IMG/VR virus record: IMGVR_UViG_3300024332_000008
Location: 1-26,116 of that record
Reading direction: 5' to 3' (one strand)
DNA length: 26,116 nucleotides
From: a virus
The notes under the pieces were generated by a model. The model had not been told where the DNA came from, searched no databases, and was given only the letters and a program-made list of their open reading frames with translations. The position numbers were made by a program, and so were the translations under genes. The stretch's first letter is position 1, and every line of letters begins with the position of its first letter. Positions 6,016 through 26,116 of the stretch are shown here, piece by piece.

Positions 6016-6783
6016 ATGGCAAAAAAAGAAAAAGCTCCAGTACAAGATGTATGGGAAGCAAAAGATAGATTATATACGCTTAAAAATAACAAGCGTCCTC
6101 TAGTATTTACCGTACCTTCAAGGCACAGTGCTAAAAAACCTTTATTATGGTTTGACGAAGAAAAGGGATACCAAAGAGAATTAAAGTACGCAACAAACCA
6201 ACCTAGTCCATTTGTTGATGAGCACAAAGGAACAGCTACGTTAGGGCGTATAGTTTTTAGAGACGGTGCATTAACCGTACCAAAACAAAACCAGGTTTTA
6301 CAAAAATTACTTTCTTTATATCATCCAATGAAAGAGTTGGTGTGGGAAGAGTATAAACCTCAGCAACAAGCTGCAAGTCAACTAGATTGGATTGAAGCTG
6401 AAATAACCGCACTTAACTTAGCTAAATCTCTTGAAGTAGAAGAGCTTGAAGCTATATTAAGAGTTGAATTCGGTACCAAGGTAAATGATTTATCTAGTAG
6501 TGAATTAAAAAGAGACGGTTTAATATTTGCAAAAAGAAACCCAATACTATTTGTTGAATTAGCTAATGACGATAACGTCAAGTTAAGAAACTTTGGTATT
6601 AAAGCTGTAGAAGCTAAAATAATTAAACTATCACAGAATCAAAGATCATTTACTTACGGAGATGGTGATAGAAAACTTATGGCTGTACCTTTTGACGAAA
6701 ACCCATATTCAGCACTAGCTGCATGGTTTAAAACCGACGAAGGAGTAGAAGTTTATAAGGCAATTGAAAAAAGACTTAAATAG
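6016..6783 (+). CDS. Conserved head or neck-region protein of unknown function
   Basis: A 255-residue protein with no domain I can name. It begins with a Lys-rich stretch (MAKKEKAP). It has a charged helical middle (about residues 115-165), then VKLRNFGIKAVEAKIIKLS, and ends with VPFDENPYSALAAWFKTDEG followed by a basic helix. The last 80 residues look like the conserved core, and I have an impression of similar C-termini in other Bacteroidota phage head-tail regions; that is memory, not a search. It stands alone between two RNA hairpins (5948-5990 and 6790-6828), so its transcript level may be set separately from the genes on either side. Its leader ends TATATCATG, similar to the TTTATCATG before the scaffold gene. 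Position suggests a head-completion, decoration or connector role. There is no direct sequence proof. Confidence 0.7.
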   Translation: MAKKEKAPVQDVWEAKDRLYTLKNNKRPLVFTVPSRHSAKKPLLWFDEEKGYQRELKYATNQPSPFVDEHKGTATLGRIVFRDGALTVPKQNQVLQKLLSLYHPMKELVWEEYKPQQQAASQLDWIEAEITALNLAKSLEVEELEAILRVEFGTKVNDLSSSELKRDGLIFAKRNPILFVELANDDNVKLRNFGIKAVEAKIIKLSQNQRSFTYGDGDRKLMAVPFDENPYSALAAWFKTDEGVEVYKAIEKRLK

Positions 6784-16230: not shown

Positions 16231-16719
16231 ATGTCAAAAAATGAAATTAAATCCAATGAAAGCAAGCTTAGTAACTTTGTACATCAATTAGAAGATTTAC
16301 AAAATACTATGATTGAAAACAACCATTTAGAAAACGTATTTGGAGACGGCAAAAATCTCGTGAATAATGAAATATTCAAAATAGAAAGCGAGTTTTCAGA
16401 TCAATTATACATGCGTAAAATGTATATGCCTAAGGAATGCGTAGTAGTAAGTGCAATGCACCACACTGAGCATTTTTGGTTTTTATTAAAAGGACGAATA
16501 CTGGTTACTACAGATGGCAACGAAGTAGAACACATAGCTCCTTGTTATGAAAAATCTATGAAGGGGGCAAAAAGATTAATATTATCTTTAGAAGATTCCT
16601 TATTCATAAACGTTCATAAAAACCCAACAAATACTAAAGACATGAAAGAGGTTGAAGAGTCTTTGTACTCTATAACACTCGAAGAATATAATAAAAAAGA
16701 AAAACTATGGCAGGAATAG
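16231..16719 (+). CDS. Cupin-fold protein encoded in the tail module
   Basis: A 162-residue protein. Residues 1-50 are charged and helical. Residues 60-130 look like one cupin barrel: HHTEHFWFLLKG (His77, His78, Glu80, His81) corresponds to cupin motif 1, followed by a short Gly/Asp turn (VTTDGNE), and INVHKN with His129 corresponds to motif 2. These residues could bind a divalent metal. Cupins include sugar isomerases, dioxygenases and pure binding proteins. The virion setting suggests a structural or carbohydrate-binding role, or an enzyme acting on a surface glycan, but no substrate can be read from the sequence. Small cupins beside tail genes occur in other marine phages in my recollection. 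The gene ends TAG inside the start of the next gene (13-base overlap), which implies translational coupling to the internal-virion genes. Confidence 0.7.
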   Translation: MSKNEIKSNESKLSNFVHQLEDLQNTMIENNHLENVFGDGKNLVNNEIFKIESEFSDQLYMRKMYMPKECVVVSAMHHTEHFWFLLKGRILVTTDGNEVEHIAPCYEKSMKGAKRLILSLEDSLFINVHKNPTNTKDMKEVEESLYSITLEEYNKKEKLWQE

Positions 16720-18641: not shown

Positions 18642-21600
18642 ATGCCAAAGTATAAAACTAAAGACGGTGTCATTGACACTACTGACTACACTGAAACACA
18701 GATGGTTAGTTTTAATTTTAACTATCCAGACGCTACAATTGTAGAGGAGGATTTTCAAGACGGAGCTGCGGGGCCGGATGCGCCTGTAACTCCAGTAATG
18801 CCAAACAGAGCGTCCATAATAGCGGGGACTCAGCCAAAAGATACGGAATTACCATCGGAAGACACTTCTTCGGATTTATCAGTGGGTGACGAAGGATACT
18901 TAGAACAAGAAAGAAAGAAAGGTAGAGCTGTAAGTGATATTGAAAGGGAAATTAGAAACCCTAAGAAGTATAAAGAATATACATGGTTGTACAATTCTAG
19001 CCAGCAAAAAAAGGAGGAAAAAGCTCAACGTATTCGTGAAAAAAACTTAGCCAGGTTAAACAAGACTCCAGAGGAAACCCAAAGCTATAAAGACAGAGCT
19101 ACTTTAATGCAGGCGTCAGTAGAGGCTGTTACTGCTGAGACGGAAAAAAACGAGATATTAAGCGAAACCTTTAGAATAAAAGACTTAGACCGTAGAAACG
19201 CAACTACAAAATTTGGCTCAGGTAAGTATGTGGAATATCTACCTAAATATAAAACAGACGAGGACTACGAAAAATACTTGAAAGAAAGTCTAGGTAACAA
19301 ATATGATAGGTATAAAGAATTGTCTGACGCTGCTAGCAAAGACAACCTATACTTAACAACATCGAACATTTCAGATTATGCTACTTTAGACGATGCCGAT
19401 GCCAATGTAGCAAATGCAGTCGTTTATAAAAACCAAACAGAGGCTAATCAGGTGTATTTAAGAGATGTAGACGAGGAAGACCAAACCTACGTTGAATTAT
19501 ATACTGGGACAAAAGACACACAAAAAAAGAAACAAGCTGCGTATAAAGCAGAGGTCGATAGAGCGTTAGGCGATCAAGAAAAATACAAGGCTGCTACAGG
19601 TGATCCACTATTAGAAAAGACTACTTATAATGGTGTAACTTACGATCCAGTTGTTAATGCAGAATTAGCAATGGATAAAGTTGAAGAGCAAACCCAGATA
19701 CAGTTAGGGAAAGATCTAGAAGCATTCCAAAATAATAGCGTAGATATACAAGGTGACATAAAAAAGTTAGAGGATATTCAAAAGCAAATGGAAGAATACT
19801 CCACTACTGATTTTGAAAACCCAGACCAAGTAAAATATAGAGAAGGGCTTATAGAAAAAGAGTCTAGCCTACTTAATAAAATAAACGCGCAAATTATAGT
19901 TTTAAACGCGGAATCTACATCTTTAACTAATAGAGTTAAGAAAGGAAGGATTGCACAAGCTACAGATGCTGCGTTGGTTAAGTCTTATAAAACAATGGAC
20001 AAATTAGCCAACGTATGGGACAGTGCGTTTGTGGGTAGTACCAAAATGGTAATAGGCGGTATCGCTAGAGCTTTTGGAGACGAAGAAACGTATAACGCAG
20101 CGGTTGACTATAACCAGCAGTTACAGGAGTATAGTGAAAAGTATTTACCAGCTGCATTGACAATGGACGACAGCAGTTCCGCTTGGCAATATGCCGGGGA
20201 TATGTTAGTTAATAATTCTCCTTCAATAGCAGTAGCTTTAGCCACTGTAGGTACTGGAGGAATAGCAGCAGCTGGAGGTGGAGCGGTAGCAAGAGCAGCG
20301 GCAACCAGAACAGCCTCGAGATACGCTAGTGGTTTATTTTTTACAATGGAGGCTGGTGGTCAATTATCCAACCTTGAAATTGCAGAACGCGGAGCTGACG
20401 AAGCATTAGCGTCTTTAAGAGAAGAGCTTAAGATAGCAGAACAATCTGGTGCTGGAAGTATTGTAATTAATGATATTAAAGATCAAATACAAGTACAAGA
20501 AGAAAATAAAAGCAAATCATTCACGCAAAAAGCGTTTAATAGTATAATATACGGAGGTATTGCCGCAGGTGCTGAGAGACTAGGAACATTAGGTTTTATA
20601 AGTAACTTTCAAAAGTATTCAAAATCAGTTGGAGGTAATAAGTTTAGAAAATTATTTGGGGATGCTGTTGGATCTAGAGTTGCTAAGAATGTTGGTTTAT
20701 TAAACGCAACAGGAATTGGGGCCGGTATTGAAAACATAGAAGAAGGTTTTACTCTTATAGGACAAAACATAGCCGATAACGCAATATTTCAACCAGATAA
20801 ACCAAAAAGTATTATAGAGGGCTTAGACGGAGAATTTGTTAGGAATACTTTAACATCGTCTTTTGCTATATCTGGCCCTAGCGTAAGCCAAAATATATAT
20901 AGTCAAGTAGCAAATGTAGTCAAAACTAGAAAGCAATCTAGAGAGGAAGGAGCTATAAGAGATGAGTTAATATCTATACAAGCAGAACTGGACGGGTTAG
21001 ATAAAAGAACTAAAAAAGCAAGATCATTAGCCACTAAAAGAGATGAGCTTATTAATAAGTCTGCCATGGAAAATACTGGGATTATGCTTAATCTTAAGAA
21101 TTTAACAGGCAGCGAAATAGAAACTGTTTTTGAGAACGATGCTGAAATGCGCAGGCTAAAGCTAGAAGCGCAGGATTTAGACGTTACGGATAACTCACCA
21201 AGAACAAGAGCGGAATTTAACCGTTTAAAAAATAAAGCTCAAGAATTATTTAATGCCAACCAGACTTTATTAAGTAGAGGAGAAGTTGATATTGAAAAAT
21301 TTGCAAAAAATACAGCAAACCCAGTTGAGGCTGAGTTTAACGCTAGACGATACAATACATTTAAGTACATCGCTGAAAACAATCCTAACACCAATACTGT
21401 AATAATTAAGGACGAAGCCGATGCCCAAGCTTATGCAAACTCTAGATTTGGAGAAGACAGCCAAGCTAACAAGGACTTCATGGAGGACTACGCTAGTAGA
21501 GGATCTAATGCAGAATTTGACGCTAATGGAGATTTATTATTATATGAAGATGTTATTTTAAATCAAATAGCAGGTGGAGGTATAAATGCAGAAATAGCTT

Positions 21601-24600
21601 CGGTATCACCTTTGCACGAAATTGGCCACCAACAAATAAAAGCGGCTGGTATAATAAAAAATGATGCTCTAACGACTTCGTCAGCTAACGACTTAGTTAA
21701 GAGTATTCTCGCAGATGTACAGTCTAGATTTGAACAAGGCAAGATCACACAGGAAGAGATGGATATTTTCAATCAACGTATGGCTTTTTACAAAAAGCAA
21801 GGTGAAGGAATGTATACAGAAACAGAAGGTGTAGACGCAGATGAGCTTATACAACTGGTTGGTGATTTTACAGCATTAGGTATATTGCCAAAGAGTAGTT
21901 ACAATACTTTGTTCGGTGCCAAAACGCTTATCAATAACTTATTAAAAAGATTCAACGGAGATAGTGCTCCATATTTTAATGTAAACAATGCAAATGACGT
22001 TTACTCTTTTGTGGCTAATTTTCAAAACAAAGCCGCCGCATTTGAATTAAAGAAAGGGGTAGCTGGCAAAGGAGCAACAAAGAAATCTATAAGCGCAGCA
22101 GCAGAGAAAAGTAATGCTAGAGTAAATCTTATAACTAAAGAGCAATTGTCTAGTCCGAGATCGCAGTCTATATTGTTTGAGGAAATTTCAAATATGGCAG
22201 CTGCTCAGATAGCTGGTAGATATTCTTTACCTCCACAAACATTAGAGGATTTTACTAACGACGTAGTTGGTAGAATATATCTTGCTAAAGAAAACGAGAA
22301 GTGGGACGGAAAAGGTACACTAAGTGGATTCTTAGGCGGTAGAATTAGTTTCCGTATTGAGGATGTTGTTCGTAAAGAATATAAGCTTAACCCAGCAGAA
22401 AGACAGTATTTAAGTACTGTAGAGAACTTAAGACCGGAAGATCAAAAAGATCTAATGACAGAAGAAGTTGCTCCTGCGGTACAAGAAAAACCTAAGTACA
22501 GAACATTAGTAGAAAGCAAACTATTGCCTCCCGCTCAAGTTAAGTCAGTTAAGCAAAAAATAGTATCAATAGCTCGTGTTTTAAAAAGCAGGCTAGATGC
22601 CCCTATGGGTAAGAATGCTTCTGTAACACCTATAATTAATGAACTAAAGAAAAATTTAGGTAAGCAGATAGACATTGAGTTTAAGACTATGTTGGGTAAG
22701 AAAAAAGGTGGCGAGCTAAAAGAAAATGTACTGAAGCATAAGAAAGCTATCTTAGAGAACATGACCACTACTTGGTTAATGCAAGCTATGCCGTTTGCTA
22801 TTGAAAAGTCTGTTGGTGGTAAATACAAAGTAGATGAAGAAGGTAAAAGAGTAAAAGATACTAATGGTGATTTTATTTTTATACCAAACTATACTAGAGA
22901 ATGGGAAGGTAAAGATATAGACCGAGCTAAAACATCTACACAACAACAAGGTAAAACATCTGGTCCTGAGATATCAAGAAGATTAACTAATGCATCGTCA
23001 AAAATCAGTGACGATCAATTCCTTAGTTACTTATTTAAAGACGGGGAAGTTATAAGAGGTCGTAAAGAATCCCTATCTAAAGCATTAGCGGAAGAGTACG
23101 GTTTTGATATGATAAATAGAGAGCTAAAAGATCCAGATAGTGATATAAGTAAAGCGTTTGAGAATAACCAAGAAATGCTTGGTATGGTTATAGCTGACAA
23201 TTTTGTTGCCGAGGTATCAAAGCAAAGCGAAAGAGGTCTTGTTAAAAGAAGCGCAATTGTAAATCCGCAAGTTGTATTTAGAGATGCTTTAGCTTTAGAG
23301 ATTGATGGTGATTTAGACGGGTCATTAGCATTGCTTGAAACATTGTCTCCAGAAGATAGAGCAGCGTATGAAGACATTACAGCTAATATAAAGGTTGATA
23401 CTGCTAGGTATAAGCAATCTCTTAAGAAATGGAAAGGCGCACCTAAAAATATCAAAGCTCTTATCAATCAGTATTTTGAAAATAACTCTGCTCGCGACAA
23501 TAAGCAGGCTATGAAGGAATACTATCAGTTCAGTGTAGATATGATAGATGCTTTGCCAAATGCTTTAGTGAAAGCCTTGGGAGCAGATTTCTTTGGAGCA
23601 CACTATAGATATTTAAATCCTAAAGAAGCAAAGTCATTAGGAGCTAAGATAAGATCTAAAATAGATGCATTACCTAATATAAACGAAGACATAGGATTTA
23701 ATCCTGAAGACATGCGTTTAATTCAAGCAGGTTCTGGTATTGTTGCTACTATAACAAAAGATATATTAAACAAAGAATTTAAAACCGCTCAAGATAAGGT
23801 TGACGCTTTTATGGATAAGTATGGTAGCGAGGTTGATGCTTTAAATGTAGCAAACAAAAAAGCTATAGAGAAAGTAGTTTCCACCGCGTTGGATATATCT
23901 ATGAAGAAGCCTCAGCAAGCTGTAGGATTTTTAAGAATGTTAGAATCCACAACTAATATAGGTAAGTCACTTAGATCTTTAACTGGTATTAGTGATATAC
24001 AAATGACAGCAGCTTCTCAAGCTGTATACGTTAACACTAAAACTGGAAAAGGGTACAGTAACACTTTGAACGCTGGTCAAAAAGCAAAAGTTGAATCCGG
24101 AGAAATTGTTCTTAATGAAAAACATCCAAACTATAAAGAAGCTAAAAAGTTTATAGCTGATGGATCAAAACAAACAATACCCCAGTTAATAAGAATTAAA
24201 GGAGAACACGCTACTCCTTCTTCTAACTTTAATGTAAGTGTAGCTAAAGAGTTTTTAACATCTTTAAGTATTGCAATGGAGAACCCAGGAGGTAAGCAAA
24301 TTGTAAAAGATGCTTTAATCGCTAAGGTTAATGAGTTAACTATAGAGTTCAACCAGCAATTAAACACAAAAGTGTTATCTGATTTACAAGACGCTAAATT
24401 AGGAGCAACAAGTGATATAGGTGATTTAAGATTATTAGCTATACCATTGGAAAGTCAAAACGCTTTTTACGATATGAAAGGCTTACAGACTATTGGTAGA
24501 GTACAATCATTAATGAATACAATGTTTAGCCCTAAAAACGTTGCTGAGCGTGCTAAAATAGCTACAGAACAAAAAGCTATAAACAACGCCAGAAAGAAAT

Positions 24601-26116
24601 CTTATGCGGCTAACCCTAAAGGAATAAGCGTATATGACTTTGATGATACATTGGCTACAACTAAGTCTAATGTTATGTACTCCGTGCCAAATAGTGAAGG
24701 CGGATTTAGTGATGGTACTACAAAACTTAAAGCTATCTTTATGGTTGGTGGCCCTGGTGCTGGTAAAACAAATGTTGGTAAAGGTTTACAACTTGGGAGA
24801 CGCGGATATAAAGTTGTTAATCAAGATATAGCTTTAGAGGCTATGAAAACAGAAGTGGGACTGCCAAACAACGAATCTGATTATACAGCAGAGCAAAGAT
24901 CTATGAGATCGAAATTAGGAGCAGCAGCAAGGAAAGCCGCTGTAGCTAAGTTTGATAAATATGCGGAAGCTGGTAATGGTATGGTTATTGACGGTACAGG
25001 CGCTTCTTATAATGCCACAACTAAAAAAATAAAAGCATTAGAAGAACAAGGCTTTGAGGTACACATGGTTGTAGCTACGACTCCTCTTTCCACGGCATTA
25101 GAAAGAAACAGAGCTAGAAAAGAAAGATCGTTAAAAGATTTTGTAGTAGAGAAAACTTATAATCAAGTGCAAGAAAGCTTAGCACAATACAGAAAAGATT
25201 TTGGGGATCGCTTATACGAAATAAACACAGAGACTATAGAATACGGTAAACCTTTGCCTAATGACTTTTTACAAGAAGTTTATGCTGGTATTAATAAAAA
25301 TAAGGTTAACAAGATTGACGCTACTCAATTCGCAAAACAAGGGGAAAGCTTGGCAAACGCCGGCGCTAAATTTGATTTTAGTGATTTCAATAAGGTTGTT
25401 AAAGGTGAACCTGGCCCGTTAGCTCCAAGACTTAAAAAAGCTATAGATAAATTTGGCAACGAAAATATTTTTGTATTAACTGCAAGACCAGCGGAATCTG
25501 CTACTGCTATACACGCATTCTTAAAAGGACTAGGTATGGAAATACCTTTAGAAAATATAACAGGCTTAGCTAATGGTTCACCCGCGGCAAAAGCATCTTG
25601 GATGATTGGTAAGGTTGCAGACGGATATAACGACTTCTACTTTGTCGATGATCACATGGGTAATGTAAAGGCAGTTAAAGATGTTCTAAATGTATTTGAT
25701 GTTAAGGGTAAAGTTCAACAAGCAAGAGTTAAAAGAAGTGCAGCTTTAGGCAAAGGGTTAAACGAAATGATAGAGCGTAACAAAGGAGTTGATGCGCGTG
25801 CTGTATATTCTAAAGTTAGAGCTTCAAAAGAAGGTGCTTCTAAAGGTAAGTTTAAAATCTTTATACCTTACGGCGCAGATGATTTTAGAGGTTTAACATC
25901 TTACACTTTAGCGGGTAAAGGCAAGCAGGGTGAAGCTGATCAAAAATTCTTTGAAGACAACTTGGTTAAACCCTACATGAGAGGTATATCTGCTATGGAA
26001 AAAGCTAGGAGAGCTTTAAAGAACGATTATTTAACTCTTCTTAAGCAATTACCTGGTATGAAAAAAATGCTAGGCAAACAAATAGGAGACACCGATTATA
26101 CGGTAGATCAAGCTGT
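18642..26116 (+). CDS. Giant multi-domain virion protein, polyvalent-protein type (3' end outside window)
   Basis: One frame runs from ATG 18642 (leader AAAATAATATG) through at least 2491 codons without a stop. Read in order: residues 1-90 are acidic linker; 100-440 are charged helices with a coiled coil near 347-435; 527-550, 627-650 and 687-715 are Gly/Ala-rich hydrophobic segments that could meet a membrane. HEIGH at 992-996 is a zincin metallopeptidase motif. Residues 1177-1246 resemble sigma region 2. Residues 1250-1980 are helical and not assigned. HAD motif I lies at 1999-2003, a P-loop kinase at about 2025-2216, and HAD motifs II-IV at 2280, 2317 and 2336-2337. A charged domain follows from 2400. 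It occupies the place of T7 gp16, so it is probably packaged and ejected. Phage polyvalent proteins are a described concept, but this combination is not one I can name. Its enzymatic roles are inferred. Confidence 0.8.
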   Translation, partial: MPKYKTKDGVIDTTDYTETQMVSFNFNYPDATIVEEDFQDGAAGPDAPVTPVMPNRASIIAGTQPKDTELPSEDTSSDLSVGDEGYLEQERKKGRAVSDIEREIRNPKKYKEYTWLYNSSQQKKEEKAQRIREKNLARLNKTPEETQSYKDRATLMQASVEAVTAETEKNEILSETFRIKDLDRRNATTKFGSGKYVEYLPKYKTDEDYEKYLKESLGNKYDRYKELSDAASKDNLYLTTSNISDYATLDDADANVANAVVYKNQTEANQVYLRDVDEEDQTYVELYTGTKDTQKKKQAAYKAEVDRALGDQEKYKAATGDPLLEKTTYNGVTYDPVVNAELAMDKVEEQTQIQLGKDLEAFQNNSVDIQGDIKKLEDIQKQMEEYSTTDFENPDQVKYREGLIEKESSLLNKINAQIIVLNAESTSLTNRVKKGRIAQATDAALVKSYKTMDKLANVWDSAFVGSTKMVIGGIARAFGDEETYNAAVDYNQQLQEYSEKYLPAALTMDDSSSAWQYAGDMLVNNSPSIAVALATVGTGGIAAAGGGAVARAAATRTASRYASGLFFTMEAGGQLSNLEIAERGADEALASLREELKIAEQSGAGSIVINDIKDQIQVQEENKSKSFTQKAFNSIIYGGIAAGAERLGTLGFISNFQKYSKSVGGNKFRKLFGDAVGSRVAKNVGLLNATGIGAGIENIEEGFTLIGQNIADNAIFQPDKPKSIIEGLDGEFVRNTLTSSFAISGPSVSQNIYSQVANVVKTRKQSREEGAIRDELISIQAELDGLDKRTKKARSLATKRDELINKSAMENTGIMLNLKNLTGSEIETVFENDAEMRRLKLEAQDLDVTDNSPRTRAEFNRLKNKAQELFNANQTLLSRGEVDIEKFAKNTANPVEAEFNARRYNTFKYIAENNPNTNTVIIKDEADAQAYANSRFGEDSQANKDFMEDYASRGSNAEFDANGDLLLYEDVILNQIAGGGINAEIASVSPLHEIGHQQIKAAGIIKNDALTTSSANDLVKSILADVQSRFEQGKITQEEMDIFNQRMAFYKKQGEGMYTETEGVDADELIQLVGDFTALGILPKSSYNTLFGAKTLINNLLKRFNGDSAPYFNVNNANDVYSFVANFQNKAAAFELKKGVAGKGATKKSISAAAEKSNARVNLITKEQLSSPRSQSILFEEISNMAAAQIAGRYSLPPQTLEDFTNDVVGRIYLAKENEKWDGKGTLSGFLGGRISFRIEDVVRKEYKLNPAERQYLSTVENLRPEDQKDLMTEEVAPAVQEKPKYRTLVESKLLPPAQVKSVKQKIVSIARVLKSRLDAPMGKNASVTPIINELKKNLGKQIDIEFKTMLGKKKGGELKENVLKHKKAILENMTTTWLMQAMPFAIEKSVGGKYKVDEEGKRVKDTNGDFIFIPNYTREWEGKDIDRAKTSTQQQGKTSGPEISRRLTNASSKISDDQFLSYLFKDGEVIRGRKESLSKALAEEYGFDMINRELKDPDSDISKAFENNQEMLGMVIADNFVAEVSKQSERGLVKRSAIVNPQVVFRDALALEIDGDLDGSLALLETLSPEDRAAYEDITANIKVDTARYKQSLKKWKGAPKNIKALINQYFENNSARDNKQAMKEYYQFSVDMIDALPNALVKALGADFFGAHYRYLNPKEAKSLGAKIRSKIDALPNINEDIGFNPEDMRLIQAGSGIVATITKDILNKEFKTAQDKVDAFMDKYGSEVDALNVANKKAIEKVVSTALDISMKKPQQAVGFLRMLESTTNIGKSLRSLTGISDIQMTAASQAVYVNTKTGKGYSNTLNAGQKAKVESGEIVLNEKHPNYKEAKKFIADGSKQTIPQLIRIKGEHATPSSNFNVSVAKEFLTSLSIAMENPGGKQIVKDALIAKVNELTIEFNQQLNTKVLSDLQDAKLGATSDIGDLRLLAIPLESQNAFYDMKGLQTIGRVQSLMNTMFSPKNVAERAKIATEQKAINNARKKSYAANPKGISVYDFDDTLATTKSNVMYSVPNSEGGFSDGTTKLKAIFMVGGPGAGKTNVGKGLQLGRRGYKVVNQDIALEAMKTEVGLPNNESDYTAEQRSMRSKLGAAARKAAVAKFDKYAEAGNGMVIDGTGASYNATTKKIKALEEQGFEVHMVVATTPLSTALERNRARKERSLKDFVVEKTYNQVQESLAQYRKDFGDRLYEINTETIEYGKPLPNDFLQEVYAGINKNKVNKIDATQFAKQGESLANAGAKFDFSDFNKVVKGEPGPLAPRLKKAIDKFGNENIFVLTARPAESATAIHAFLKGLGMEIPLENITGLANGSPAAKASWMIGKVADGYNDFYFVDDHMGNVKAVKDVLNVFDVKGKVQQARVKRSAALGKGLNEMIERNKGVDARAVYSKVRASKEGASKGKFKIFIPYGADDFRGLTSYTLAGKGKQGEADQKFFEDNLVKPYMRGISAMEKARRALKNDYLTLLKQLPGMKKMLGKQIGDTDYTVDQA
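21549..21911 (+). other. Zincin-like metallopeptidase domain inside the giant protein
   Basis: Residues about 970-1090. A strand-like stretch (DLLLYEDVIL) is followed by SVSPLHEIGHQQ. His992, Glu993 and His996 fit the HExxH zinc site, with Glu993 as catalytic base. Glu1068 in VDADELIQLVGDF is a candidate third ligand, as in gluzincins, about 72 residues downstream. Zincin domains are common in phage polyvalent proteins. Targets could be host proteins or the giant chain itself. Fold and third ligand are inferred. Confidence 0.6.
22170..22379 (+). other. Sigma-factor region-2-like segment inside the giant protein
   Basis: Residues about 1177-1246 run: Ala/Ile-rich helix with AAQIAGRY, a short Pro turn, TLEDFTNDVVGRIYLA, then KWDGKGTLSGFLGGRISFRI. 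The order (basic/aromatic helix, acidic 'ED' helix, K-W/F-D turn, Ser/Phe helix with Arg) is that of sigma-70 region 2. It is a short likeness seen by eye and may be chance convergence of a helical domain. Confidence 0.3.
24609..25721 (+). other. HAD phosphatase-like domain split by a kinase insertion
   Basis: Residues about 1990-2360. Motif I is DFDDT (Asp1999 nucleophile, Asp2001 acid/base). Motif II is Thr2280 in FVLTARP. Motif III is Lys2317 in SPAAKASW. Motif IV is Asp2336-Asp2337 in YFVDDHMGN. All four catalytic motifs of the HAD superfamily are present, so an active phosphohydrolase is plausible. The 277 residues between motifs I and II are far more than a normal cap and contain a whole kinase domain. 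Confidence 0.78.
24714..25289 (+). other. P-loop kinase domain (zeta/polynucleotide-kinase type) nested in the HAD domain
   Basis: Residues about 2025-2216. Walker A is GGPGAGKT at 2036-2043. VVNQD (Asp2062) matches the N-x-D substrate-binding site of zeta and polynucleotide kinases. VIDGTG at 2115-2120 ends the third core strand. The Arg-rich ERNRARKER at 2154-2162 fits the lid arginines that grip phosphates. About 190 residues is the usual length of this fold. Substrate is unknown: UDP-GlcNAc, a nucleic-acid 5' end and a small nucleotide are all possible. Confidence 0.75.

Follow-up and report, generated by a model that had tools for sequence, protein, structure and literature searches.

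A P-loop kinase nested in the flap of a HAD phosphatase domain, and recurrent exchange of modules at this site, in giant late proteins of phages

How does a complete kinase come to lie inside a phosphatase, and what might a phage gain from such an arrangement? The question is raised by a stretch of viral DNA of 26,116 nucleotides (IMG/VR record IMGVR_UViG_3300024332_000008; hereafter the window), in which a sequence-only reading had placed a P-loop kinase between motifs I and II of a HAD phosphatase, within a presumed virion protein. The motifs on which that reading was based, the four of the HAD domain and the Walker A, N-x-D and lid arginines of the kinase, were all located. The features are listed below; the invariance of kinase residues refers to a set of 39 nested and free kinases, two T4-like phage homologues included.

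18642..26116, plus strand: giant late-gene protein, first 2,491 of 3,110 aa, continuing past the window end
21615..21629, plus strand: HEIGH metallopeptidase-type motif, residues 992-996, HExxH conserved in relatives
24627..24689, plus strand: first half of the HAD domain, with strand 1, motif I, squiggle and first flap strand (24672-24689)
24636, plus strand: HAD motif I DFDDT, D1999 and D2001
24690..25298, plus strand: inserted P-loop kinase, 203 aa, residues 2017-2219, at the flap turn (AAA_33/Zeta/PNK profiles)
24747..24770, plus strand: Walker A GGPGAGKT, residues 2036-2043, core G and K invariant in 39/39
24819..24827, plus strand: NQD, residues 2060-2062, N and D invariant in 39/39
24984..25001, plus strand: VIDGTG substrate-side motif, residues 2115-2120, D and T invariant in 39/39
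25104..25127, plus strand: lid RNRARKER, residues 2155-2162, three Arg invariant in 39/39
25299..25727, plus strand: second half of the HAD domain, starting with the second flap strand (25299-25316), from AlphaFold2 and invariant alignment columns
25476, plus strand: HAD motif II, T2280 in LTAR
25590, plus strand: HAD motif III, K2317
25647, plus strand: HAD motif IV, DD2336-2337

The open frame 18642-26114 is uninterrupted across the region, and the full length of 3,110 aa is reached in the longer contigs L002 and L003. Synteny with portal and structural genes places the gene among the late virion genes. The neighbouring structural genes have matches in Flavobacterium (elemo), Cellulophaga and Maribacter podoviruses, and the position of the giant-protein gene is that of elemo phage gp18, a 'structural protein' of 3,695 aa, and also that of the gene for the 3,860-aa giant of the Manatee Spring phage. 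Residues 629-784 are weakly homologous to the elemo giant (blastp 7e-4, hhalign 8e-4); homology of the C-terminal and metallopeptidase (HExxH) regions to the elemo and Manatee giants was undetectable, and searches with the giant protein reached annotated phages solely via its kinase. Of the 91 relatives that exceed 2,400 aa, 88 have the HExxH motif, compared with 0.3 in shuffled sequences.

With its HExxH peptidase motif and late-gene position, the giant multidomain protein resembles the polyvalent proteins, which have been proposed to be packaged and injected and whose repertoire includes Zeta-like kinases and ADP-ribosyltransferases (ARTs) (Iyer et al. 2017, PMC5512222). It differs from them in the nesting at one fixed docking turn, which is absent from the searched text of that paper; a word search there found no mention of polynucleotide kinase, phosphatase or inserted domain. 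The designation as a virion protein is likely, given the HExxH motif and a late-gene position shared with a protein annotated as structural; packaging in the virion and ejection with the DNA we infer. The Manatee Spring phage giant (L165, 242-11821, minus strand) carries two HEFGH motifs, and a small late-gene protein of the window (16231-16719) gives a weak Cupin_2 match (0.0022). A ribonucleotide reductase large subunit is encoded on the opposite strand directly downstream, after an amidase, in L002 (10484-12202, minus strand), and about 15 tRNAs and an annotated tmRNA lie beside the late genes of Maribacter phage Panino (L082, 37258-40021, minus strand).

The HAD phosphatase comprises residues ~1996-2362 of the giant (window 24,627-25,727). 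Profile searches, proposed in the sequence-only reading for both domains, succeeded for the kinase, which hit AAA_33, Zeta and PNK; the HAD half stayed below the Pfam family thresholds, and its sequence profile matched nothing meaningful in the PDB, so a fold search was required. The HAD assignment is based on relatives without the insert that are up to 81% identical to the window HAD, on weak HAD family matches found in its relatives, and on the HAD of L012, which was modelled separately with its own insert of 44 aa (AlphaFold2 pLDDT 90.6); all 11 PDB matches of this model at E<=0.001 in a Foldseek search were HAD enzymes. The four motifs (DxD, S/T, K, acidic) are invariant in uninserted relatives, and a Rossmannoid fold with squiggle and flap is seen in the AlphaFold2 models. 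The original reading of this half as HAD was thus right, since the window holds all four motifs and HAD-only relatives as close as these exist. Annotated phages queried with the uninserted giant-protein HAD and the stand-alone HAD of L047 yielded no relatives, and neither did the species genomes of bacteria and archaea that were scanned. The HAD region of two giants (L030 ~6100-6500 and L042 ~6270-6550) is broken by frame changes with stop codons, which reflect either genuine decay or sequencing error.

The spacing between motifs I and II is 279 residues in the window versus 76-77 in ~198 of 243 distinct relatives; the window thus has 203 aa more. The insert enters at the turn of the beta-hairpin just after motif I, where the uninserted consensus reads V-[LI]-[YV]-T-x-P-D-G; the flanks TKSNVMYSVPN and DATQFAKQG, previously read as parts of a continuous domain, form the two sides of this one hairpin. 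AlphaFold2, run on 43 sequences, folded both kinase and HAD and gave a nested model with pLDDT 92.1 and pTM 0.83, in which hairpin strands 29-34 and 238-243 flank the complete kinase; strands 12-17 and 29-34, together with the alignment to uninserted relatives, define the first half of the HAD domain. The altered spacing and the confident nested model indicate that the nesting is beyond chance, and homologues with the HAD but without the insert were found, e.g. L014. An insert in the HAD flap is by definition a C1 cap (PMC8069645), so the kinase, with flap strands on both sides, occupies the C1-cap position. As in C1-capped HAD phosphatases, the insert lies within the flap hairpin; in contrast to them, it is a whole second enzyme, is optional, and is swapped for unrelated modules among close relatives.

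Since the window is of metagenomic origin, an assembly chimaera or a decayed fusion could be suspected, and nothing beyond that origin speaks for it. The same junctions are shared by L002, L003 and L004 from other samples, and these independent contigs refute a chimaera; ~29 further nested copies divergent from that of the window, and strong purifying selection, likewise count against such an artefact, which we regard as having practically no chance of being true.

The closest known kinases are the polynucleotide kinases (PNKs) of T4 and C. thermocellum, and Zeta. In Pfam it matches AAA_33 (E=8.7e-15) and Zeta_toxin (1.2e-9, the latter reaching 6e-14 in L199), and in PHROGs phrog_505 'polynucleotide kinase' (1.1e-10); its relatives also match PHROG 'polynucleotide kinase' families. 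The best matches of its profile in the PDB are T4 PNK (1ly1; 4.3e-6), C. thermocellum PNK (6.2e-6) and Zeta (8.4e-6). The Asp of NQD aligns with the general base of T4 Pnk (1ly1), and the lid aligns with the RNxxR-type lids of T4 and C. thermocellum PNK. The PNK-type DxxR arginine three residues past the general base, R38 in T4, is absent in all aligned kinases (NQDIAL in the window). With the Zeta/PezT toxin kinases the insert shares the fold and the N-terminal motifs, and Zeta is the top PDB match in Foldseek; however, the profile alignment spans only the N-terminal part and leaves the Zeta lid outside and unmatched, the IEGTGR arginine is replaced by Ala (IDGTGA), and no antitoxin gene was noticed.

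Kinases of the marine T4-like phages Melnitz and HTVC008M and of Atu_ph07 are 28-35% identical to that of the window and share its invariant residues, but are encoded as small separate genes or within another protein in which no HAD motif was seen. The genes beside the HTVC008M and Melnitz kinases were considered as candidates for this HAD and rejected on reading them. The first residues of the stand-alone kinases are MKTFAELQE|G in Melnitz and MIPFILKE|G in HTVC008M, where the bar marks the putative cut. A hallmark of T4 capsid-targeting sequences is a prohead-protease site, L/I-x-E, at about residue 10 (PMC9026906); the two starts fit such a site, the motif being short, and if it is real these homologues would be packaged too. 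Stand-alone kinase or HAD proteins in L078 (2953-3621), L080 (3004-3666) and L047 (5839-6366) carry short N-terminal peptides that end in L-x-E and resemble T4 capsid-targeting sequences.

All HAD and kinase motifs are kept in the 16/16 nested copies of the first set. Kinase pairs give dN/dS values of ~0.05-0.14, and the part of the HAD that follows the insert gives 0.04-0.05, with one misframed comparison, to L012, left out of these figures; purifying selection acts on both domains. Together with the kinase residues invariant in 39/39 sequences, this suggests that both enzymes are probably active, and the degenerate active sites that would have spoken for other families were not encountered.

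The contents of the flap were compared in a census of 243 distinct related HADs, assembled by targeted searches, so that its counts are not unbiased natural frequencies: 198 flaps are empty, 30 hold a kinase, 8 a helical insert of 44 aa and 6 an ART-like insert, and the remaining one, L159, has a slightly longer flap hairpin. The spacing of motifs II-IV is 55 in 241 of the 243, and nearly all variation in length therefore falls in the flap. The inserts other than the kinase are as follows.

L254 2497-3429 (insert ~2560-2994), also L368-L371 and possibly L164: ART-like insert at the HAD flap turn
L012 6070-6231, also L005, L006, L008, L013, L025, L050 and L134: 44-aa helical insert at the HAD flap turn

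The ART-like assignment draws on an ART-PolyVal match (PF18760) of L254 at E=1e-4, below the Pfam cut-off, and on weaker ones of L369 and L371 (0.013 and 0.005, respectively); the L164 insert appears ART-like by eye, with no Pfam support.

On a tree of the HAD domains with inserts removed, the presence of the kinase changes at least 12 times, indicating that modules have docked at the flap repeatedly. Forcing the first 16 nested HADs into one clade was rejected (p-AU 0.0235); a single origin of nesting followed by plain vertical descent is ruled out by this test and by the number of changes. Exchange is also visible in the DNA. The kinase-free giants L012 and L008, with the 44-aa helical insert, and L014, with none, are 72-80% identical to the window's protein before the HAD, and in the codon alignment the window flanks show ~75-90% DNA identity to these three. 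The insert has mostly 75-90% DNA identity to kinases of otherwise distant giants, and the switch in identity between relatives sits near each insert boundary. Most of the nested kinases in the first set share 84-90% identity with that of the window, their HADs only 55-61%. In L069 and L073 the kinase precedes an uninserted HAD by ~1,000 residues. The giants L067, L068 and L076 bear a kinase, and no HAD was found in their records, which may be fragments; in L067 and L076 the kinase stands in place of the HAD. Given kinase giants of this kind and flaps with other or no contents, kinase and HAD assort independently.

This independence bears on the proposal that one chain phosphorylates and dephosphorylates the same kind of substrate, in particular that the nested pair is an analogue of T4 Pnkp, a 5'-kinase with a 3'-phosphatase that, right after injection, would mend the DNA or RNA ends left by cuts of the host defence. 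In T4 Pnkp (PDB 1ltq), too, a P-loop kinase and a HAD phosphatase share one chain, and the lid arginines align, as does the general-base Asp. Foldseek with the nested model returned Zeta, C. thermocellum PNK (TM 0.67 by target length) and T4 Pnkp as PDB neighbours, the last aligned over ~362 columns, through both domains, at a low TM, as expected if the domain arrangement differs. Indeed, the T4 domains are in tandem, kinase then phosphatase, whereas here, as the sequence-only reading had stated, the kinase is nested within the HAD; T4 has Arg at Asp+3 and the window Leu; and the HAD half is only weakly related in sequence. End healing accords with the kinase profile and lid and with the PHROG families of the kinase relatives. 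It also accords with the HAD relatives, of which 14/25 match phrog_415, a PHROG 'polynucleotide kinase' family (best 7.6e-9), a weak hint of a Pnkp-type phosphatase, and with a DNA ligase encoded in 13/21 related records. However, the ligase is found in phages without the kinase too, the PNK3P Pfam match is confined to one relative (E=0.37), and the DxxR position lacks its Arg. An RNA ligase occurs in just 1/21 related records and none was seen in the other 20, which leaves RNA healing with such a partner unsupported. The flap, moreover, is empty in ~80% of the sampled HADs or filled by ART-like or helical modules, and some giants have a kinase with no HAD in the record. Repair of a shared substrate is therefore disfavoured though possible, and end healing in particular seems to us unlikely, with some real weight left to it.

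Quite improbable, in our estimate, is that the insert acts as a Zeta/PezT-like UDP-N-acetylglucosamine kinase which weakens the cell wall at entry, with an unrelated HAD. The Zeta domains of polyvalent and MuF proteins have been suggested to weaken the wall in this way (PMC5512222), and the Pfam and Foldseek matches, like the Zeta kinases known among polyvalent proteins, agree with it; the truncated profile alignment, the unmatched lid and the Ala in place of the IEGTGR arginine argue against it. Varied cargos at one site of an otherwise constant scaffold could also mean that the HAD is mainly a structural dock, its catalysis secondary and the insert alone mattering, as an effector. The conservation of the four HAD motifs in every nested copy and their invariance in uninserted relatives, with dN/dS ~0.05, make this a reading to which we give little credence.

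We favour, with somewhat better than even confidence for the whole, a polyvalent-type giant with exchangeable docking at the flap and an active PNK-like kinase in the C1-cap position of the HAD. The giant would be a polyvalent-type protein of a lytic podovirus, with a host probably among the Bacteroidota, made late, packaged and delivered alongside the DNA. In the commonest form of the HAD the flap is minimal and the active site probably open. Recombination close to the conserved flanks of the hairpin would pass complete modules from phage to phage at the flap turn, be it a kinase, a helical pair or an ART-like domain; in the window the turn holds an apparently active PNK-like kinase, at the cap position of an apparently active phosphatase. 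Docking would guarantee co-delivery, and the kinase may restrict what reaches the active site of the phosphatase. Once inside the host, the most likely acceptor of the kinase is a hydroxyl of a nucleic-acid end or nucleotide, which we favour with moderate confidence, and the HAD would remove a phosphate; a substrate common to both enzymes is possible and not required. More speculatively, and we hold this only tentatively, the flap could be a general socket in which swapped enzymes serve as catalytic caps acting in concert with the injected phosphatase, the kinase controlling or reversing it on the same substrate class.

A kinase inserted in the HAD flap is a variant on known themes, namely C1-capped HADs, polyvalent proteins and PNK/Zeta-like kinases; our literature search, chiefly of openly available papers, found no report of it. 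The most interesting result is, above any single fusion, the recurrent exchangeable docking at one flap. HAD caps determine substrate choice, yet in this protein a whole second enzyme takes the place of the cap, and unrelated modules replace it in phages whose proteins are closely related. With empty, helical, kinase and ART-like states at one site of one scaffold, cap evolution becomes testable as a natural series. For the phages, it means that multifunctional, probably injected proteins are built by swapping domains inside domains, instead of end to end.
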